8,302 nt of DNA from a bacterium (GTDB lineage: Bacteria > ARS69): the NCBI GenBank assembly GCA_025774865.1, contig JALGZO010000434.1, positions 1 to 8,302 of the forward strand, read 5' to 3'. This document shows, piece by piece, positions 2 through 8,302 of the stretch. How positions within the stretch are numbered: the first letter of the stretch is position 1; each line of letters starts with the position of its first letter. The notes beneath the pieces were generated by a model. It was not told where the DNA came from and made no database searches. It was given only the letters and a program-made list of their open reading frames with translations. The position numbers and the translations under genes are program-made.

Positions 2-1606
2 GAGCCCGCGGGCGTCGATCGGGGTGGCTCCGAACCCCCGCCAAGCCTCTCGGTCACACCGTCCGAGACGGACGCCGCCCGGCGGCGCCGGGACCTGGTG
101 ATGCCGCTCCTCTGGGCGACGCGGGACGCGCCCGAGGATCCCCTCGCCGCGCAGATGGCCGCGTACGCGCCACCGACCCGGACTCTCCAGCTGATGAGCA
201 CGGTGAGCCCGGCGTCGGAAGAGGGAGACCAGGAACCCACCCCGTCCACCGCGTCCGCCGTGATTCCACTCACGCTGGAGGGCAGCGTCGATACGGCGCT
301 CGAGCACAACCTGCGCGTTCAGGTCGCACGCCTCACGAAGGAAGCGGCCGAGGCCGACGTCGCGGGGGCCAAGGCCAAGTTCCACCCGCGGCTCGGGCTC
401 GGGTTCCTGCAAGAGGAGGGCCAAGCGGTCGTGACGCAAGACTCCGGCCTGGAGTCGACGGTCACTCCGAGGGTGCAGTCCGCATCGGCCATCCTGAGTC
501 AAGAGATCCCGACGGGCGGAACCGCCGTGGTCTCCGGCGACCTCGTCTATGACGAGGGGATCATCGTCGACTCTCACGACGCCGGCGTTACGGTGAGCAT
601 CGTCCAGCCGCTGCTTCGCGGAGGGCGAATCTACGTCGCGCGGCAACCGATTCGTGACGCGGAGTACGATCTGGAGGTCGAGGAGGCGCGGCTCCGGACC
701 GAGACGCTGCTGATGATCGCAGACACCAAGACGGCGTACTACAACACCCTTCTGGCCGAGAAGATCATCCGCGTCACGCTGGAGGCGATCGAGCGGGACA
801 AAGCTCTGATCGAGGCCTCGCAGGCGCTGTTCGACGCCGGGCTCGTGACGAAGCGCGACGTCTACAGCGCGGAGATCCTGCTGGCGAACGACCGGGCGAA
901 GCTGGCCGGGGCCGAAGGCGATCTCGAGTTGGTGCGAAACGACCTGCTCGACCTGCTCGGCCTGCCGATCAGCCAGCCGGTCGAGCTCGTCGACCGGGAC
1001 ATCAGCTTCGAGCCCATTTCGCTCAAGCCGGACGAGTGGATCACGGCCGCCGTGCAAAACCGCCCCGAGGTCTACGAGATTCGTGCGAGAATGGAGAAGA
1101 CCCAGCTGAGCCTCGGGGTCGCTCGGAACGAGCGGTGGCCCGCTCTGGACGTCGTGGGGAGCTACGGACGCTCCCAGTCCGGACTGAGTCGGAGCGCCGC
1201 GCTCGAGCTCGATCGATACGCGTGGAGCGCGGGGGTCGTCTTCTCCCTTCCCATCGGGAGCGCAGAGGCCCGGGCCGCGGCTCGGCGCGCCGAGCTCGAG
1301 CAGGAACGCCTGGAACGCGAGCTCCAGGACACGAAGAGAAGAATCGAGCTCGACGTTCGAGCGAGCACGATCAAGCTCCGGACGAGCGTTCAGAAGATGG
1401 CGGCGCTTCAAGTAGGTGTCGAGCAAGCGCAAGGCAAGCTGGAGATCGCGAGGGAACGGTTCGCGCTGGGGCTCGCCACGAACCTCGACATCACGGACGC
1501 CCAGGAGAACCTTCTCGGAGCCGAGACGGATCTTCTGACGGCGATCGTCGACTATAATATCGGCCTGGCCGAGCTGGAGGCGAGCATTGCAGGCCCTATT
1601 TCATAG
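2..1606 (+). CDS. TolC-family outer-membrane efflux protein (5' end outside window)
   Basis: Outer-membrane channel of the OEP/TolC family, the exit duct of a tripartite efflux pump. Counting from the GTG at 98 as residue 1 (502 residues), the first OEP repeat begins near residue 56 (IPLTLEGSVDTALEHNLRV, the usual opening) and the second runs from about 310 to 498. A beta-strand stretch lies near 350-387 (GSYGRSQS, then AWSAGVVFSLPI), and the characteristic last helix is FALGLATNLDITDAQENLL near 456. Long Ala/Glu/Arg-rich helices fit the periplasmic barrel. No signal peptide follows the GTG. The same frame has no stop back to base 2 and encodes a Pro/Ser/Thr-rich stretch, so I infer that the true start and signal sequence lie upstream; 98 is only the first plausible in-window start. 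The stop overlaps the adaptor gene by 20 nt. The family call is firm; the substrate is unknown. Confidence 0.9.
   Translation, partial: EPAGVDRGGSEPPPSLSVTPSETDAARRRRDLVMPLLWATRDAPEDPLAAQMAAYAPPTRTLQLMSTVSPASEEGDQEPTPSTASAVIPLTLEGSVDTALEHNLRVQVARLTKEAAEADVAGAKAKFHPRLGLGFLQEEGQAVVTQDSGLESTVTPRVQSASAILSQEIPTGGTAVVSGDLVYDEGIIVDSHDAGVTVSIVQPLLRGGRIYVARQPIRDAEYDLEVEEARLRTETLLMIADTKTAYYNTLLAEKIIRVTLEAIERDKALIEASQALFDAGLVTKRDVYSAEILLANDRAKLAGAEGDLELVRNDLLDLLGLPISQPVELVDRDISFEPISLKPDEWITAAVQNRPEVYEIRARMEKTQLSLGVARNERWPALDVVGSYGRSQSGLSRSAALELDRYAWSAGVVFSLPIGSAEARAAARRAELEQERLERELQDTKRRIELDVRASTIKLRTSVQKMAALQVGVEQAQGKLEIARERFALGLATNLDITDAQENLLGAETDLLTAIVDYNIGLAELEASIAGPIS
1576..1580 (+). promoter_or_regulatory. 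Shine-Dalgarno GGAGG for the adaptor gene
   Basis: GGAGG lies inside the end of the TolC-family gene, six bases before the TTG at 1587. This spacing supports the TTG as the start of the adaptor rather than the GTG at 1614, which has only a weak purine run before it. Confidence 0.6.
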
Positions 1607-3140
1607 AGCGGAAGTGGCCTGGTCGGGCTTCGCAACGACCTGGCTGAACTGGCAGCGACAGCTGGATGGAGTTCTCCCCGAGCCGATTCGGAAGTTCGGG
1701 CGCATCGCGGTCATCCGGCAGGTCGGTTGGCTCGGTGTCATCGCCATCATCCTCGTCGTGGGTACCGCCGCGTACTTCGTCTCGCGCCCGAACGGGCGAG
1801 CGTTCGCGGCGGCCGTGTACACCGTCGAGACGGGTGACGTCACCATCCGGATCAGCCAGCGCGGAGAACTGCGAGCGTTGGACTCCGTCACGCTCAGCGC
1901 TCAGAAGGATCTCCCCATCATCTACCTCGTTCCCGAGGGAACCCAGGTGGAGGAAGGGGATCTCGTCGTCGAGTTCGACGCCGGGAAGTACGAGAACGCT
2001 CTCGAGGAAGCCAAGGTCGATCTTCAGGTCACCCAGGCGAATCTTCAGAAGGCGGAGAAGGAGTTCGAGTCTCAGGGGCTGAAGCTCGAGGCCGGGATCG
2101 CCCGTTACGAAGGAGACCTGCATCTCGCGCAGCTCGAACTGGACACGGTGAAGAACAGGCCGCTTCCCCACGAGCTGGATCGCGCCACGAACCTGCTCGA
2201 GAACGCGAAGCTCGCCTTCCAGAACGCGAAGAACAAGCGCGAGTTCATGCCGAGCCTGGTCGAGAAGGGTTTCGTCACCAAAGTGTCGCTCGAGGAGGCG
2301 GAGCTGTCGTACCTCGAGGCCAAGGCGAATCTCTCCGCCGCTCAGTTCGAGTACGACCTGGTCGTCGCCGGGGCGACCCCCCAGGAGTTGCGGATAGCGG
2401 AGATCGGCGTGGAGCAGGCGCAGGTCGCGGTCGACAAGGCCCGCGCCGGCATGCAGTCGGAGCTGGAGTCGTTCGGAGCGACCGTAGCCCGGGAACGTGC
2501 CAACGTGAGGCGGGCGGAAAAGCTGATCGGGGCCGCGGAGCTCAAGCTCGCCCGGGGTACCCTGTTCGCGCCGCGGGCGGGAATCGTCGTCTACGCTCCG
2601 GCGGCCGCCGGATCCAACGAGAAGGTCCAGCTCGGCATGATCCCTTACGAAGGGCAGCCGGTCGCGTACCTCCCGGATCTCTCGAAGATGGTCGTCGACA
2701 TCGAGATCAACGAGATCGACATCGGGAAGGTAACCGAGGGCAGCTCCGTCGAGGTGAGACTGGAGGCCTACCCCGGTGAAGTCTTCCACGGAACCGTGAT
2801 GGAGATCAGTTCCCTCGCGAAGGTGAAGTCGACGCCCTCGGGAATGTCCTCGGGAATCAAAGCGTTCGGCGTCGTCGTGAAGATCGACGCGCAAGACACG
2901 AGGCTCAAGCCGGGTCTGACCGTGCTCTGTGACATCGTGGTGGACCAGCGCCAGGATGCGCTCTCGGTTCCGCTGCGCGCGGTGACCACGCGGCGCGGCG
3001 AGCACGTCGTCTTCGTGAACGATGCCGGGAAGATCAAAGAGCGAAAGGTGGTTCTGGGCCACAGCAACGAGCACATCGTGATCGTCGAGGAGGGGTTGCG
3101 AGCGGGAGACAGGGTCCTCCTCGGTCCGCCGTCCTCGTAG
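1587..3140 (+). CDS. HlyD/MacA-family periplasmic adaptor (membrane fusion protein)
   Basis: Periplasmic adaptor that links the inner-membrane ABC permease to the TolC-type channel. The 517-residue protein has about 44 cytoplasmic residues and then one membrane anchor (about 45-66, GWLGVIAIILVVGTAAYFV). The first half of the lipoyl/barrel-sandwich domain follows (about 77-131, with VPEGTQVEEGDLVVEFD). Next come a long coiled-coil hairpin (about 132-320, rich in Glu, Ala, Lys and Leu), the second lipoyl half (about 324-372, LFAPRAGIVVY), a beta-barrel (about 378-445, with DIEINEIDIGKVTEG) and a membrane-proximal domain (about 455-517) ending GLRAGDRVLLGPPSS. The order and length fit MacA-like adaptors; the cytoplasmic leader is longer than in E. 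coli MacA. The TTG start is chosen because of the well-placed GGAGG at 1576. The gene overlaps its upstream neighbour by 20 nt and abuts the ATPase gene, implying stoichiometric production with the pump. Confidence 0.92.
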   Translation: MQALFHRAEVAWSGFATTWLNWQRQLDGVLPEPIRKFGRIAVIRQVGWLGVIAIILVVGTAAYFVSRPNGRAFAAAVYTVETGDVTIRISQRGELRALDSVTLSAQKDLPIIYLVPEGTQVEEGDLVVEFDAGKYENALEEAKVDLQVTQANLQKAEKEFESQGLKLEAGIARYEGDLHLAQLELDTVKNRPLPHELDRATNLLENAKLAFQNAKNKREFMPSLVEKGFVTKVSLEEAELSYLEAKANLSAAQFEYDLVVAGATPQELRIAEIGVEQAQVAVDKARAGMQSELESFGATVARERANVRRAEKLIGAAELKLARGTLFAPRAGIVVYAPAAAGSNEKVQLGMIPYEGQPVAYLPDLSKMVVDIEINEIDIGKVTEGSSVEVRLEAYPGEVFHGTVMEISSLAKVKSTPSGMSSGIKAFGVVVKIDAQDTRLKPGLTVLCDIVVDQRQDALSVPLRAVTTRRGEHVVFVNDAGKIKERKVVLGHSNEHIVIVEEGLRAGDRVLLGPPSS

Positions 3141-3893
3141 ATGTTGATCCGCATCAGCCAGCTCCGGAAGACCTACGTCATGGGTACGGTGGAGGTGCAC
3201 GCCCTCCGCGGCGTCGACCTGAGCGTGGAGAGCGGCGAGTTCATCGCGATCATGGGCGCGTCGGGGTCGGGAAAGTCGACGCTGCTGCATTTGCTCGGGT
3301 GCCTCGACCAGCCGAGCGGAGGCACCTACGAGCTCGGCGGCACCGCCGTCCAGACGCTGGAGGACCGCGAGCTTTCGCGGGTCCGCAACGAGCGGATCGG
3401 GATCGTCTTCCAGGCCTTCAACCTCATCTTGCAGCACAACGTCCTCGAGAACGTCGAGCTTCCGTTGATCTACAAAGGCGTCGAGAAGGAAGAGAGAAGG
3501 GAGCGGAGTCTGGCGCTCCTGCAGCGGGTCGGTCTCGCCGACAAAGTGCTGCACCGTCCCGAGGAGCTCTCGGGCGGCGAGATGCAGCGCGTTGCCATCG
3601 CCCGCGCGCTGGCCGCGGATCCGCTCCTCCTTCTGGCGGACGAACCGACCGGAAACCTCGACTCGAAGACGTCGGCCGGCATCATGGACCTGTTCTGCGA
3701 GCTCCACGCGGCCGGGACCACCATCCTCATGGTGACGCACGACGACGAGACTGCGCAGCACGCGCAGCGCATGATCGTGCTCCGTGACGGACTGATCTTC
3801 CGGGATGCGACCCGTCGGGGTACGAACGGGCAGGGTAGTTTCTGGTCCCCCAAGAGCGCTCCGAGGAGTCCTTGGACCGGGAGTCCCTCATGA
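3141..3893 (+). CDS. MacB/LolD-type ABC transporter ATPase
   Basis: Nucleotide-binding subunit that powers the neighbouring FtsX/MacB-type permease from the cytoplasmic face. All ABC motifs are present in 250 residues: Walker A GASGSGKST at 39-47, Q-loop Gln91 (VFQAFN), signature LSGGEMQR at 143-150, Walker B LLLLADEP at 162-169 with Glu168, D-loop GNLD at 171-174 and switch His200 (MVTHDD). The family opening (ISQLRKTY, then ALRGVDL) fixes the ATG at 3141, which directly follows the adaptor stop (TAGATG). No Shine-Dalgarno is visible before it, so translation probably relies on termination-reinitiation. The signature, with Glu where MacB usually has Gln, is closer to LolD. The last 28 or so residues, after RDGLIFRD, form a Ser/Pro/Arg-rich tail outside the conserved fold. 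E. coli MacB has ATPase and permease fused; here they are separate. Confidence 0.95.
   Translation: MLIRISQLRKTYVMGTVEVHALRGVDLSVESGEFIAIMGASGSGKSTLLHLLGCLDQPSGGTYELGGTAVQTLEDRELSRVRNERIGIVFQAFNLILQHNVLENVELPLIYKGVEKEERRERSLALLQRVGLADKVLHRPEELSGGEMQRVAIARALAADPLLLLADEPTGNLDSKTSAGIMDLFCELHAAGTTILMVTHDDETAQHAQRMIVLRDGLIFRDATRRGTNGQGSFWSPKSAPRSPWTGSPS
3879..3883 (+). promoter_or_regulatory. Shine-Dalgarno GGGAG for the permease gene
   Basis: GGGAG sits six bases before the ATG at 3890, inside the end of the ATPase gene. With the ATGA stop-start overlap it favours 3890 over the in-frame TTG at 3872, whose purine run (3863-3868) is only three bases away. Confidence 0.55.
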
Positions 3894-5125
3894 AGTGGTC
3901 GGAGGGCGTCAGCATGGGTGTCAAGGGTCTGCTGCTGCGGAAACTCCGTTCACTTCTCAGCACGCTCGGAATCGTGTTCGGCGTCGCGGCGGTGATCTCG
4001 ATGGTGTCCATCGGCGAGGGAGCGCGGATCGAGGCGATCGAACAGATCGAGCTCCTGGGGACGAACACGATCCGGGTCAAGCATCTCGAGCTCACGGGGG
4101 AGATGGGCCAGGAGGCCGCCCAGAGCTTCTCCCGAGGTCTCACCCGGGACGACGTGCAGCTGATCCGGGAACGTCTTTCCGACGCTGAAGGTATCGCTCC
4201 GCTGCGATTCGTGGACGCCGAGGCCCGCTTCGAGGGACGTGAGGCAATCGCCCAGATCGTCGGGACGAGTCCGGAACACGAGAAGGTCACGAACTTCCGG
4301 GCGGCCGAGGGACGATTCCTCACGGATCTCGATGTCTACGACTCCAAGAACGTGTGCATCGTCGGCTCCGAAGTCGCCGGGGAGCTTTTCGGATGGCAGA
4401 GCGCCCTCGGAGCGCGCCTTCGGATCGGAACGGGCTCCTTCACCGTGGTCGGGGTCATGGAATCGAAGTCGGTTCGCGAGGGGAGAGCGGCGGCGGTCAA
4501 AGTCCGGAACATCAATCGCGATATCTACATTCCGATCACCACCTCGCTTCGGCGATTCCCGGTGTCGCGGGATCCGCTCGCGATCGACGAGTTCGTCGTG
4601 CAGGTCGCGCGGGCCGATGGGCTCCAACGAGCGGCCGACGAGATTCAGGAGGTCCTGCACCAGCAGCACCGTGAGGCCGAGGACTACGAGATCCTGATTC
4701 CCGAGGAGCTGCTCGCCCAGGCCCAGAGAACGCAGCGTCTGTTCAACGTGATCATGGCATCGGTGGCGGGGATCTCGCTTCTCGTCGGTGGCATCGGAAT
4801 CATGAACATCATGCTCGCCAACGTATCCGAGCGAACCCGGGAGATCGGCATTCGTCGGGCCATCGGAGCCACGAAGGTCGACGTCATGATGCAGTTCTTG
4901 ATCGAGACGGTGCTGATCTGCCTGGCCGGCGGCGTGATCGGGATCGTGGTGGGGGCGGGGATGGGGAAAGTCATCACGCTGTACGCGGGATGGCGAACCG
5001 TCTTCTCGTTCCTCAGCATCGTCATCGCGTTCGGTACGGCGACGACGATCGGCATCATCTTCGGTCTGTTTCCCGCGCGGCGAGCGGCCGAGCTCGATCC
5101 GGTTCGAGCAATCCGGTTCGAGTAG
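3890..5125 (+). CDS. MacB/FtsX-type ABC transporter permease
   Basis: Inner-membrane permease of the MacB-like mechanotransmission class, partner of the ATPase just upstream. From the ATG at 3890 it has 411 residues: membrane helix 1 (about 21-43, LLSTLGIVFGVAAVISMVS), a periplasmic domain of about 240 residues (45-283), then helices 2 (about 284-309), 3 (about 336-359) and 4 (about 373-395). This four-helix plan with one large periplasmic domain between helices 1 and 2 defines the family. Typical motifs are LRSLLSTLGIVFGV near the start, SERTREIGIRRAIGAT at 313-328 (contacts the ATPase) and the C-terminal FPARRAAELDPVRAIRFE. The start forms an ATGA overlap with the ATPase stop; an in-frame TTG at 3872 would add six residues. 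With the upstream genes it completes a MacA-MacB-TolC-like pump. Substrates in this class range from macrolides to lipids and peptides, and nothing here decides which. Confidence 0.93.
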   Translation: MKWSEGVSMGVKGLLLRKLRSLLSTLGIVFGVAAVISMVSIGEGARIEAIEQIELLGTNTIRVKHLELTGEMGQEAAQSFSRGLTRDDVQLIRERLSDAEGIAPLRFVDAEARFEGREAIAQIVGTSPEHEKVTNFRAAEGRFLTDLDVYDSKNVCIVGSEVAGELFGWQSALGARLRIGTGSFTVVGVMESKSVREGRAAAVKVRNINRDIYIPITTSLRRFPVSRDPLAIDEFVVQVARADGLQRAADEIQEVLHQQHREAEDYEILIPEELLAQAQRTQRLFNVIMASVAGISLLVGGIGIMNIMLANVSERTREIGIRRAIGATKVDVMMQFLIETVLICLAGGVIGIVVGAGMGKVITLYAGWRTVFSFLSIVIAFGTATTIGIIFGLFPARRAAELDPVRAIRFE

Positions 5126-5135: not shown

Positions 5136-6932
5136 ATGGCCAAGTCGAGGGGAGCCGAAACCGGTCTGAGCGTCGGAGAGATCGGCCGGCGCCTGGGGGG
5201 CTTTGCGAAGCCGCACTGGCGCATGATCGTTCTCGCGCTCGCGATGATGCTTGGCAAGACGGCGATGACGCTGGCGAAGCCGTGGCCGGTCAAGCTCGCC
5301 CTCGACCACATCGTTCTGACCGAGGGGACGCTCGAGGGCCCAGTGCTCAAGCTCCTCATCGGAGTGATGGTGGGCGTGGTCGTGATCGTGGCCCTCCGGG
5401 GCCTCTTTGCATACTGGGAGGTCCTCGCGATCAACCGCGCGGGCCGAACGATCATCTTCTCGATACGCAAGGCGCTCTTCGACCAGATCCAGCGGCTGTC
5501 CCTGCAGTTCCACAGCCGGCGGCGAACCGGCGACCTCATGACGCGCGTGACGAGCGACGTCAAGGCGCTCCGGGTTCTCTTCACGACGTCGCTACTGGCG
5601 ATCGTGTCGAGCGTCGTGCTCCTGGTCGGGATCGCCGGTGTCTTGCTGTGGATGGACTGGCGGCTCGCGTTGATCCCGATCATCGGCGCCCCGCTGATGG
5701 TCCCCCTCATCCGCCACTACTCGCGCGACATCACGGAACTGTCTCGGGAGGAACGCCACAGCGAGGGCGCGCTAGCGTCGGTTTTGAGCGAGAGTCTGGG
5801 GTCCGTACGCCTGACGCGGGTCTTCAACCGTCAGGAGCACGCGCGGACCGCCTTTCTGCGCGACGCCGCCGCGAGCCTCGAGAGTGGCCTCGCCGCCACG
5901 ATGGCGGAACAACGAGTGGCGTGGTGGATCGACGGAATCTGGGCCTTCGTGACCGCATCGGTTCTCGGACTCGGCGTGTTCCGCGTGGTGACGGGGAGCG
6001 CGACGGCGGGCGAGCTCGTGGTCTTCGTGCACTACGTCAAGAACTACTACAAGCCGCTGCGTGCGATCCTGAAGCACGTGTACCGCATTTCGAAGTCCAT
6101 CCCTCGAGCCGAGCGCATCTTGGAAGTGCTGGAAACGCGCCGGGGTGTGCAGGAGCGTCCCGACGCGGTCGCGGCGCCCGTGATCGGGCGGGCGATCGAG
6201 TTCCGAAACGTCTCGTTCACGTACGAAGGGGATCGCACGGTCCTCGACGGGGTCGAGCTCGAGATTCCCGCCGGGTCCGTGACCGCCATCGTCGGGCCCA
6301 CGGGGGCGGGAAAGTCCACGGTCGTTTCGTTGATTCCGCGTCTCTACGATCCGACGGCGGGCGAAGTGAGGATCGATGGGCGCGATATCCGTGACTTCAC
6401 GATCGCGTCGCTCCGCGCGCAGATCGGGGTGGTTCTCCAAGAGTCGATCCTCCTGCGCACGAGCATCGCCGAGAACATCGCTTACGGGCGTTCCTCCGCC
6501 ACGGTCGACGAGATCCACGACGCCGCGAAGGCGGCGCACGCTCACGAGTTCATCGTGCAGCTGCCGGACGGCTACGACACGGTGGTCGGCGAGCGGGGGG
6601 ACACGCTCTCGGGAGGTCAACGCCAGCGGATCGCGATCGCGCGCGCCATGGTGGGCGGGTCGCCGATTCTCCTTCTCGACGAGCCATTGGCCGGACTCGA
6701 CCCGGAGTCGGCGGGCATCGTCGTGCAGGCGCTGGACGAGCTCATGAAAGACAAGACGGTCGTCATCATCACCCACCAGCTCGCGACCATCAGAAACGCG
6801 GACCAAATCATCGTCATGGACGGCGGGCGCGCGGTCCAGATGGGGCGCTACGACGATCTCCTGCGGGCCCAAGGGAAGTTCCGAGAGCTATGTGACCGGC
6901 AGGAGGGCGGCCTCCTGGCCGCCCGGACCTGA
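5136..6932 (+). CDS. MsbA-like ABC exporter half-transporter (fused membrane and ATPase domains)
   Basis: Type IV (exporter-fold) ABC half-transporter, expected to work as a dimer moving a lipid-like, glycolipid or peptide substrate out of the cytoplasm. The length, 598 residues, is normal for the family. Membrane helices lie at about 30-50, 71-94, 152-172, 176-192, 264-286 and 291-306. The intracellular loop contains the usual FHSRRRTGDLMTRVTSDV (near 125-142). The ATPase domain covers about 360-598: A-loop Tyr373, Walker A GPTGAGKST at 387-395, Q-loop Gln435, X-loop region TSIAENIAYG at 442-451, signature LSGGQRQR at 491-498, Walker B ILLLDEP at 511-517 with Glu516, and switch His547. All catalytic residues are present, so it should be active. 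After Walker B it reads PLAGLDPES instead of the ATSALD common in exporters. It starts 10 nt after the permease stop, in the same operon. It is a second, separate transporter and does not replace the MacB-like one. Confidence 0.93.
   Translation: MAKSRGAETGLSVGEIGRRLGGFAKPHWRMIVLALAMMLGKTAMTLAKPWPVKLALDHIVLTEGTLEGPVLKLLIGVMVGVVVIVALRGLFAYWEVLAINRAGRTIIFSIRKALFDQIQRLSLQFHSRRRTGDLMTRVTSDVKALRVLFTTSLLAIVSSVVLLVGIAGVLLWMDWRLALIPIIGAPLMVPLIRHYSRDITELSREERHSEGALASVLSESLGSVRLTRVFNRQEHARTAFLRDAAASLESGLAATMAEQRVAWWIDGIWAFVTASVLGLGVFRVVTGSATAGELVVFVHYVKNYYKPLRAILKHVYRISKSIPRAERILEVLETRRGVQERPDAVAAPVIGRAIEFRNVSFTYEGDRTVLDGVELEIPAGSVTAIVGPTGAGKSTVVSLIPRLYDPTAGEVRIDGRDIRDFTIASLRAQIGVVLQESILLRTSIAENIAYGRSSATVDEIHDAAKAAHAHEFIVQLPDGYDTVVGERGDTLSGGQRQRIAIARAMVGGSPILLLDEPLAGLDPESAGIVVQALDELMKDKTVVIITHQLATIRNADQIIVMDGGRAVQMGRYDDLLRAQGKFRELCDRQEGGLLAART
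6900..6924 (+). promoter_or_regulatory. Two overlapping, mutually exclusive hairpins at the exporter/kinase junction
   Basis: CAGGAGG (6900-6906) and CCTCCTG (6911-6917) form a perfect 7-bp stem with a 4-nt loop. GGGCGG (6905-6910) and CCGCCC (6919-6924) form a perfect 6-bp stem with an 8-nt loop. They share bases, so only one can form at a time. The first hides a perfect AGGAGG Shine-Dalgarno-like sequence. There is no T-run, so it is not a standard terminator. The region also codes for the last residues of the exporter, so the pairing may be chance in GC-rich DNA; a regulatory role is inference. Confidence 0.3.
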
Positions 6933-6940
6933 GCGCCGTC

Positions 6941-8302
6941 GTGGAGCACGTCCCCGCGGATCCCTCCCTGCACGGACTGAGAGAGCTCTTCCCCAGCGAA
7001 GGCGCCCCGGGATTCGTCGCCCGCGCCGCAGAAGAACTGTTCCAGGAGCCCGTGGACGAGCGAGACGGGAAGCCGGTCTACGCGCGCTACTGGCCGGGCC
7101 GGCGCTGCGTGGTGCTCTGGTCCTTTCCCGGAGCGGACGCGCCTCGGCTCGTGTCCGGCACGCTCTTCTCGGACGGGCGCGGCGCGAGAACGGTAGAGCG
7201 CTCGGCGTTCCGGCGCCTCCTGCAGTCGGCGCAGGACCGTCACGGCCCCGATCGCTCTTTCCACCGCTTCCTTCCCGACCATCGGGTTCTCCTCATGGCG
7301 TTTCCATTGGACGGTCGGCTCCGCGGTCTTCCTGCCGCGGACTCGAAGGAATGGATCCGGAGCGTGCTCTGCCCCGCGGTGGGTCTGGAGCCGGCGTCGA
7401 TCACGCGCATCGAGCACCAGGCGCTGAACTTCAAGCCCTGGAGACGGTGTGTCTTCCGGTACCGCGTGCACCGACCCGAGGGAGCGAGCGGGTTCTTCGC
7501 CAAGGTCTTTCGCGATGACCGCGGCGCGGTCCTCTTCGATCGCGCCCTCGCCGTCCACCGGCATCTGGCCGCGGCGGACCGGGGGTGGGACACGCCCCGG
7601 CCGGTGTCGTATCTCCCCGAGGAGAAGATCGTCGTGTTCGAAGAGCTGTGCGATGCGGAGGAGGTCAGCGACCTTCTGCACGACGCGGGCCGTGAGTCGC
7701 GAGCCAGAGACCGGCTGATCGATGGGTTCGAGCGGGCGGGGAGCGTGGCCGGGGAGCTCCGCGAGGCCAAGCTCGAAGACCTTCCGCGCGTTCCGCCCCA
7801 CGCGGTGCTGGCCAGTTTGCGAAAGAGAGCGGAGAACATCGAAAGGGTCGAGCCCGAGTTCGCCTTCACGGTGGAGCGGGAGCTCGATCGTCTCGGTGCC
7901 GAGGTCGAGCGTCGGGAGCCCGAGCCGTTGGTTCCGGCGCACGCGGCCTACCGCCACGATCAGCTTCTTCTTCGCGGGAACCGGCTCGCCGTTCTCGACC
8001 TCGACGGTCTGTGTCTCTCGGGTACGAGCGCGGACGCCGGACACTTTCTGGGATTCCTGGACATGGCTCGCATTCGGCGTCCCCGCAAGCGTGACCTTCT
8101 CGCCGTCTGCGAGGATGCCTTCGTGCGGGGACTTCGAAGCGGGAACGATCGGTCTCTCGAGTGGCTGAGCTGGTACCGGGCGGCGGCGCAAATCAAGAAA
8201 GCCGTCCGGAGCTTCCTCTCCCTGGACTCCAAGTGGCGCTCGGCCGCGGCGGCGCTGGACGAGGGGCTCGTCGAAGCAACGCTCGGCTGCGCTGGGAGCC
8301 CG
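6941..8302 (+). CDS. Aminoglycoside phosphotransferase/choline-kinase-fold protein, possible pseudokinase (3' end outside window)
   Basis: A reading frame of 454 codons, open to the last base, starting at a GTG eight bases after the exporter stop. An in-frame stop at 6893 and the lack of other ATG/GTG/TTG codons fix this start unless CTG 6929 is used; the ribosome-binding site is weak. Residues 159-257 look like an APH-family N-lobe: NFKPWRRCVFRYRV, Lys188 in FFAKVF (the expected ATP-binding lysine) and hinge VVFEELCDAEEVSDLL. The C-lobe motif region is HAAYRHDQLLL at 334-344, then VLDLDGLCLSG at 351-361. Compared with the family pattern HGDxxxxN, the catalytic Asp is Ala336 and the Asn is Gln341, while the metal-binding DLD (353-355) is kept. 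Residues 50-122 resemble 164-236 without gaps, suggesting a duplicated, degenerate N-lobe. It may phosphorylate a small molecule or be a non-catalytic binder. The fold call is fairly secure; the substrate is unknown. Confidence 0.78.
   Translation, partial: MEHVPADPSLHGLRELFPSEGAPGFVARAAEELFQEPVDERDGKPVYARYWPGRRCVVLWSFPGADAPRLVSGTLFSDGRGARTVERSAFRRLLQSAQDRHGPDRSFHRFLPDHRVLLMAFPLDGRLRGLPAADSKEWIRSVLCPAVGLEPASITRIEHQALNFKPWRRCVFRYRVHRPEGASGFFAKVFRDDRGAVLFDRALAVHRHLAAADRGWDTPRPVSYLPEEKIVVFEELCDAEEVSDLLHDAGRESRARDRLIDGFERAGSVAGELREAKLEDLPRVPPHAVLASLRKRAENIERVEPEFAFTVERELDRLGAEVERREPEPLVPAHAAYRHDQLLLRGNRLAVLDLDGLCLSGTSADAGHFLGFLDMARIRRPRKRDLLAVCEDAFVRGLRSGNDRSLEWLSWYRAAAQIKKAVRSFLSLDSKWRSAAAALDEGLVEATLGCAGSP

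Follow-up and report, generated by a model that had tools for sequence, protein, structure and literature searches.

A divergent kinase-fold protein with a duplicated N-lobe and no catalytic aspartate, encoded directly behind an ABC exporter

Why should a protein with the fold of a kinase carry a second copy of its own N-lobe, and what might such a protein do when its gene directly follows that of an ABC exporter? The question is raised by P0001, a protein of 454 residues whose gene lies at the end of the window analysed here (8,302 nucleotides, the whole of contig C438). Extra N-lobes in kinase folds seem, to our knowledge, to be rarely documented. The reading frame runs off the end of the contig, so the final residues of P0001 may be absent. 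Its GC content by codon position (0.75/0.49/0.82) is like that of the neighbouring genes, and for this reason the gene looks coding. The source is a metagenome-assembled genome (MAG) with a fragmented assembly and 8.3% contamination.

The genes of the window run in the order TolC, MacA-like protein, MacB ATPase, MacB permease, ABC exporter, P0001 (Table 1). The four TolC/MacA/MacB-like genes, on one strand and adjoining or overlapping one another, form an apparent operon. It may be remarked in passing that two different exporters, a complete TolC/MacA/MacB-like efflux set and the ABC exporter with its putative pseudokinase, apparently share one operon in this window.

Table 1. Features of the window and of P0001 (positions in the window; residue numbers are those of P0001).
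Feature	Position	Strand	Remarks
TolC-like	98-1606	+	upstream set in window
HlyD/MacA-like	1587-3140	+	upstream set in window
MacB-type ATPase	3141-3893	+	upstream set in window
MacB-type permease	3872-5125	+	upstream set in window
MsbA-like ABC exporter	5136..6932	+	directly upstream of P0001
P0001, K1-type APH-fold protein with duplicated N-lobe	6941..8302	+	
Copy 1, extra N-lobe	7010..7306	+	AlphaFold; HHalign to copy 2
Thr74, copy-1 counterpart of beta-3 Lys	7160..7162	+	
Asp124, end of copy 1	7310..7312	+	FPxDxxL motif
Copy 2, N-lobe joined to C-lobe	7346..7648	+	AlphaFold; HHalign; VIA-align
Lys188, copy-2 beta-3 Lys, kept	7502..7504	+	
C-lobe of APH/choline-kinase fold	7658..8302	+	VIA-align of model 130-452
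HAA (334-336) replacing HGD/HRD, catalytic Asp lost	7940..7948	+	codons CAC GCG GCC
DLD (353-355), Mg-binding DxD motif, kept	7997..8005	+	

Among APH-fold proteins there is an unnamed family with duplicated N-lobes, to which P0001 belongs as a divergent member of the K1 type. Searches of whole genomes and of GTDB contigs gave about 80 usable sequences of this family, and the residue counts below cover 60 aligned K1 and 20 aligned K2 sequences. A tree of 43 sequences splits into the two types (split support 100/99), K1 being marked by HGD and the tail AVxPFR, K2 by HRDFYDKQ and the tail LACLYxLRPRW. In this tree P0001 groups with K1, its branch being long (2.18); it also matches a K1 protein of Zixibacteria in BLASTP (1.4e-27) and carries the traits of the family: N-lobe copies at an offset of 114 residues, Asp124 and a K1-type tail. 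Pfam APH (PF01636) is matched by 48 of 52 aligned family members but not by P0001, which has no Pfam match up to E 1. P0001 is a singleton sequence: GTDB contigs yielded no close relatives of P0001 alone, and about 480 further genomes, searched in three further phyla (a limited sample, with no positive control), yielded no close orthologue and none with HAA above threshold.

The genes encoding K1 and K2 recur in a particular setting. The order found in the family is GT28-like, GT4, GT4, MsbA-like ABC exporter, K1, K2, Alginate_exp porin, joined in several cases by a UDP-sugar dehydrogenase, and of 58 loci retrieved, 47 have the exporter immediately before K1 on the same strand. The hosts of this operon include Zixibacteria, Planctomycetota, Gemmatimonadota, Opitutaceae, Acidimicrobiales, Enterobacter, Mixta and Lampropedia, and it also occurs on plasmids of Escherichia and Paracoccus; we found no paper describing a GT28-GT4-GT4-ABC-K1-K2-ALG operon in the open-access literature. 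The genome that supplied the window carries the canonical operon on another contig (C514) and a K1-K2 pair on a third (C318). In the window itself the ABC-K1 pair is present, with the TolC/MacA/MacB-like genes upstream, and the contig ends at P0001, before any K2 gene could appear. The only other matches to the window exporter in the phylum with E <1e-100 are K1-associated exporters, those of C514 and of genome G004 (~1e-101 to 1e-104). Since its nearest matches are exporters that accompany K1, the ABC-K1 pair of the window looks related to that of the operon and moved to a new setting.

Is P0001 then a kinase? The preliminary description, made from the sequence of the window, saw in it a complete kinase fold with an additional, dead N-lobe in front. 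As regards the fold, this was borne out. In the AlphaFold model of P0001, built with 52 sequences (pLDDT 92.6, pTM 0.91), residues 128-454 are predicted to form a complete APH/choline-kinase fold: VIA-align matched model residues 130-452 to LxmK (9dk3) with Z 21.4 and rmsd 3.7 over 295 aligned residues, and LxmK, Rv3168 and choline kinase, with the same bilobal APH fold, gave Z 19-21. As regards the catalytic residues, the description does not hold. The Asp of the HxD motif is present in 79 of the 80 aligned K1 and K2 members, and the lone exception is P0001, with Ala336. Of the residues that make up an active kinase (HxD Asp, Mg-binding Asp, beta-3 Lys), P0001 therefore lacks the first, while Lys188, Asp353, Asp355 and Asp365 are kept. 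Because the catalytic Asp has given way to Ala336, the main domain is probably a pseudokinase rather than an active kinase.

It might be argued that P0001 is nonetheless an active kinase, the alanine being an error of sequencing or assembly, a strain variant, or a change compensated by a neighbouring acid. The four retained residues would fit with activity, and a fragmented, contaminated MAG is the sort of source in which an error might be suspected. However, the whole loop deviates (HAAYRHDQ, as opposed to HGDFxxxQ or HRDFYDKQ), more than a single error would account for, and we regard this as unlikely. Somewhat less likely again is that P0001 is a non-functional, decaying duplicate of the K1 of the operon, as the long branch, the failure to find a close relative and the loss of the catalytic Asp might suggest. 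Against decay, the frame is uninterrupted over 454 codons with a host-like GC content at third positions, the invariant Asp124 and the nucleotide-binding residues are retained, and the gene begins 9 nucleotides past that of the exporter, in an apparent operon. A functional protein that does without catalysis is our preferred reading of P0001.

Known proteins offer partial parallels. LxmK, the kinase of class V lanthipeptide synthetases (9dk1-9dk3), is the best VIA-align match to the main domain, and is also the only NCBIfam match of P0001 (36.8 bits, E 2.2e-9), far below the cut-off of 315 bits. The alignment is limited to the main domain of P0001 and leaves the second N-lobe unmatched; moreover, the substrate of LxmK is a peptide, neither a gene like LxmY nor a precursor peptide was noticed among the genes of the operon, and the catalytic Asp221 of LxmK is present (PMC12291118), in contrast to Ala336 of P0001. 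RosX and TvaE, kinase-fold cyclases that have lost the kinase residues and serve another purpose (PMC12291118), resemble P0001 in having an APH-like fold without catalytic residues. RosX, however, has lost the ATP and Mg residues as well, which P0001 keeps, and here too no precursor peptide was noticed.

Maltokinase (Mak) and the glucosamine kinase SjGlcNK (4u94, 6hwj; PMC4306142, PMC6520443) combine, like P0001, an APH/eukaryotic-like fold with a domain in front of the N-lobe. Both are sugar kinases linked to glycan metabolism. They differ from P0001 in keeping the catalytic Asp, and from the K1/K2 family in that no ABC-K1-K2 operon has been described for them. In maltokinase the additional domain is a cystatin-like cap (PMC4306142), and one might suppose that the extra domain of P0001 is such a cap (Mak_N_cap), its likeness to an N-lobe being topological only. 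A Foldseek search with the whole P0001 model did place mycobacterial maltokinase 4u94 first, over 477 columns. Yet a profile of 12 Mak caps compared with copy 1 by HHalign gave a probability of 0.9, when a positive control with the C-lobe gave 98.4 and copy 1 compared with copy 2 gave 96, and a Pfam scan of 52 family members listed no Mak_N_cap match, P0001 included. Although a very remote relation is possible, descent of copy 1 from a Mak cap is without profile support and seems improbable.

The evidence points instead to a copy of the protein's own ATP-binding lobe, which P0001 does possess. The preliminary description had aligned residues 50-122 with residues 164-236 at a constant offset of 114 and without a gap, placing the repeat at nucleotides 7088-7648. 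Those nucleotides do encode residues 50-236, the 16 identities listed among 73 positions are recovered exactly, and Lys188 of copy 2 pairs with Thr74 of copy 1 as claimed. The alignment has 29 positive columns and a BLOSUM62 sum of 42. The count of identities is in itself weak evidence, as at least 16 identities in some window of 73 residues appeared in 146 of 300 shuffles. The best ungapped self-match anywhere in P0001 is at the same offset (residues 52-118, score 49, the runner-up scoring 31), a score attained in 6 of 1000 shuffles of the protein. Duplication thus has modest support from P0001 considered by itself, and strong support from the comparison of its relatives. When P0001 was excluded, 114 was the best of 251 offsets both among 59 K1 relatives (z 8.06) and among 20 K2 relatives (z 3.51). 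The comparison of the two copies by HHalign that the preliminary description had proposed proved significant: K1 copy 1 matched K1 copy 2 with a probability of 96.2 and E 2.5e-9 (94.9 and E 4.3e-8 without P0001), the score without P0001 was 44.6, and none of 60 column-shuffled controls exceeded 15.2, and K1 copy 1 gave no signal against the C-lobe (probability 0.2). K2 copy 1 gave no signal against K2 copy 2 (0.2); K2 is tied to the duplication through the match of its copy 1 to K1 copy 1 (94) and through the offset. The frequency of 16 identities in shuffles is the one point in favour of a chance match within a protein rich in Arg, Ala and Gly, and that reading, a very improbable one, is refuted by the ranking of the offset without P0001 and by HHalign, to which the predicted structure adds its weight.

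In the model, the two copies have matching secondary structure, in the common order alpha-beta-beta-beta-alpha-beta-beta: H24-34, E44-51, E55-62, E69-76, H79-101, E108-111 and E116-120 in copy 1, and H136-146, E156-165, E169-178, E181-190, H194-212, E221-225 and E230-234 in copy 2. The elements of copy 1 are unchanged when residues 1-150 are modelled alone (pLDDT 85.5). Searches with this model returned almost only kinase N-lobes, at modest scores (best VIA Z 7.1), among them choline kinase residues 83-208 and APH(9) residues 4-103. Since kinases are over-represented in the PDB, these matches amount to agreement rather than proof; Foldseek with residues 1-150 alone gave no individually significant match (best E 0.4), and no PDB entry matches copy 1 in sequence. 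The reading of copy 1 as an additional, non-catalytic N-lobe that precedes a full APH fold is supported by family profiles and structure prediction; the word "dead" fits copy 1 of P0001, with its Thr74, and not that of the family. At the copy-1 beta-3 position, K1 proteins have Lys in 35 of 60 cases and Arg in 18 (together 53/60), and Asp124 is invariant in all 80 K1 and K2 sequences, so copy 1 appears constrained in the family, among whose members P0001 stands apart. At the corresponding position of copy 2, Arg occurs in 47 and Lys in 8 of 60 K1 proteins, and Lys in 19 of 20 K2 proteins. With copy 2 mostly Arg and copy 1 often Lys, it looks as if the copies of K1 had swapped roles.

The explanation that we favour, with a probability of about 60%, is that P0001 is a divergent K1-type protein with a duplicated N-lobe that serves as a non-catalytic partner or regulator of the exporter encoded just upstream. 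According to this model, an ancestral tandem duplication placed copy 1 before the working N-lobe and C-lobe. Copy 1 would be a docking or regulatory cap, and the substrate-binding or regulatory role suggested for it in the preliminary description is plausible. In the canonical systems, three glycosyltransferase genes come first, and the genes for K1 and K2 follow that of an MsbA-like exporter and precede that of an outer-membrane porin of the alginate-export type. The pair, presumably catalytic, would phosphorylate a precursor, the glycan itself or the lipid that carries it, at about the stage of export. This suggestion draws on gene company and on a purely functional analogy with WbdD (PMC3482155), a kinase/methyltransferase that acts on the O9a polysaccharide, a glycan exported by an ABC transporter. 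The main domain of P0001 still has residues for ATP and metal (Lys188 and Asp353), whereas the catalytic Asp is gone, so P0001 most likely serves the exporter as a partner that does not catalyse, though it may bind ATP. One may speculate further that the family marks a widespread, undescribed system for making and exporting a polysaccharide, in which a pair of APH-fold kinases with duplicated N-lobes acts on the glycan or on a lipid carrier and is coupled to an MsbA-like exporter, and that the pseudokinase subunit of the window gates its ABC exporter, but so extended a proposal is tentative and rather doubtful.

That an extra N-lobe is fixed across phyla together with an invariant Asp points to a selected function. 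K1 and K2 mark an operon of three glycosyltransferases, an exporter, two kinases and a porin that reaches from candidate phyla to Escherichia plasmids, and since it has cultured hosts, the substrates of the pair can be tested. The kinase pair occurs on ten Escherichia plasmids, where the annotation says no more than "phosphotransferase" or "aminoglycoside phosphotransferase family protein", a naming that could mislead the annotation of resistance. On one of them, a conjugative IncF plasmid of E. coli (L123; NZ_CP012501.1 152225-180523), the GT28-GT4-GT4-ABC-K1-K2-alginate-export cluster includes a UDP-sugar dehydrogenase and lies about 3 kb from a gene for heat-stable enterotoxin.

Other loci showed variations. 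Apparent ABC-K1 fusions at L088, L111 and L115 proved to be Arg-rich upstream readings with no ABC signature motif and were rejected; the upstream part of L112 looks like theirs in sequence. The large open reading frames at L052, L058 and L008, from the genome of the window and its relatives, encode proteins whose ends resemble, by eye, type IX secretion sorting signals (YLVRLEAG...KITLLR). At L051 (G028:C84, 1234-2781, minus strand), outside the K1/K2 family, an N-terminal domain that by eye resembles a PHP-type phosphoesterase precedes an APH-like kinase domain with the motif HGDYHPKN. K1 and K2 lie in a single frame, which looks genuine, at L069, L091 and L097, and a third kinase with a duplicated N-lobe stands beside K1 and K2 at L056, L063, L064, L068 and L070, in Zixibacteria and others.
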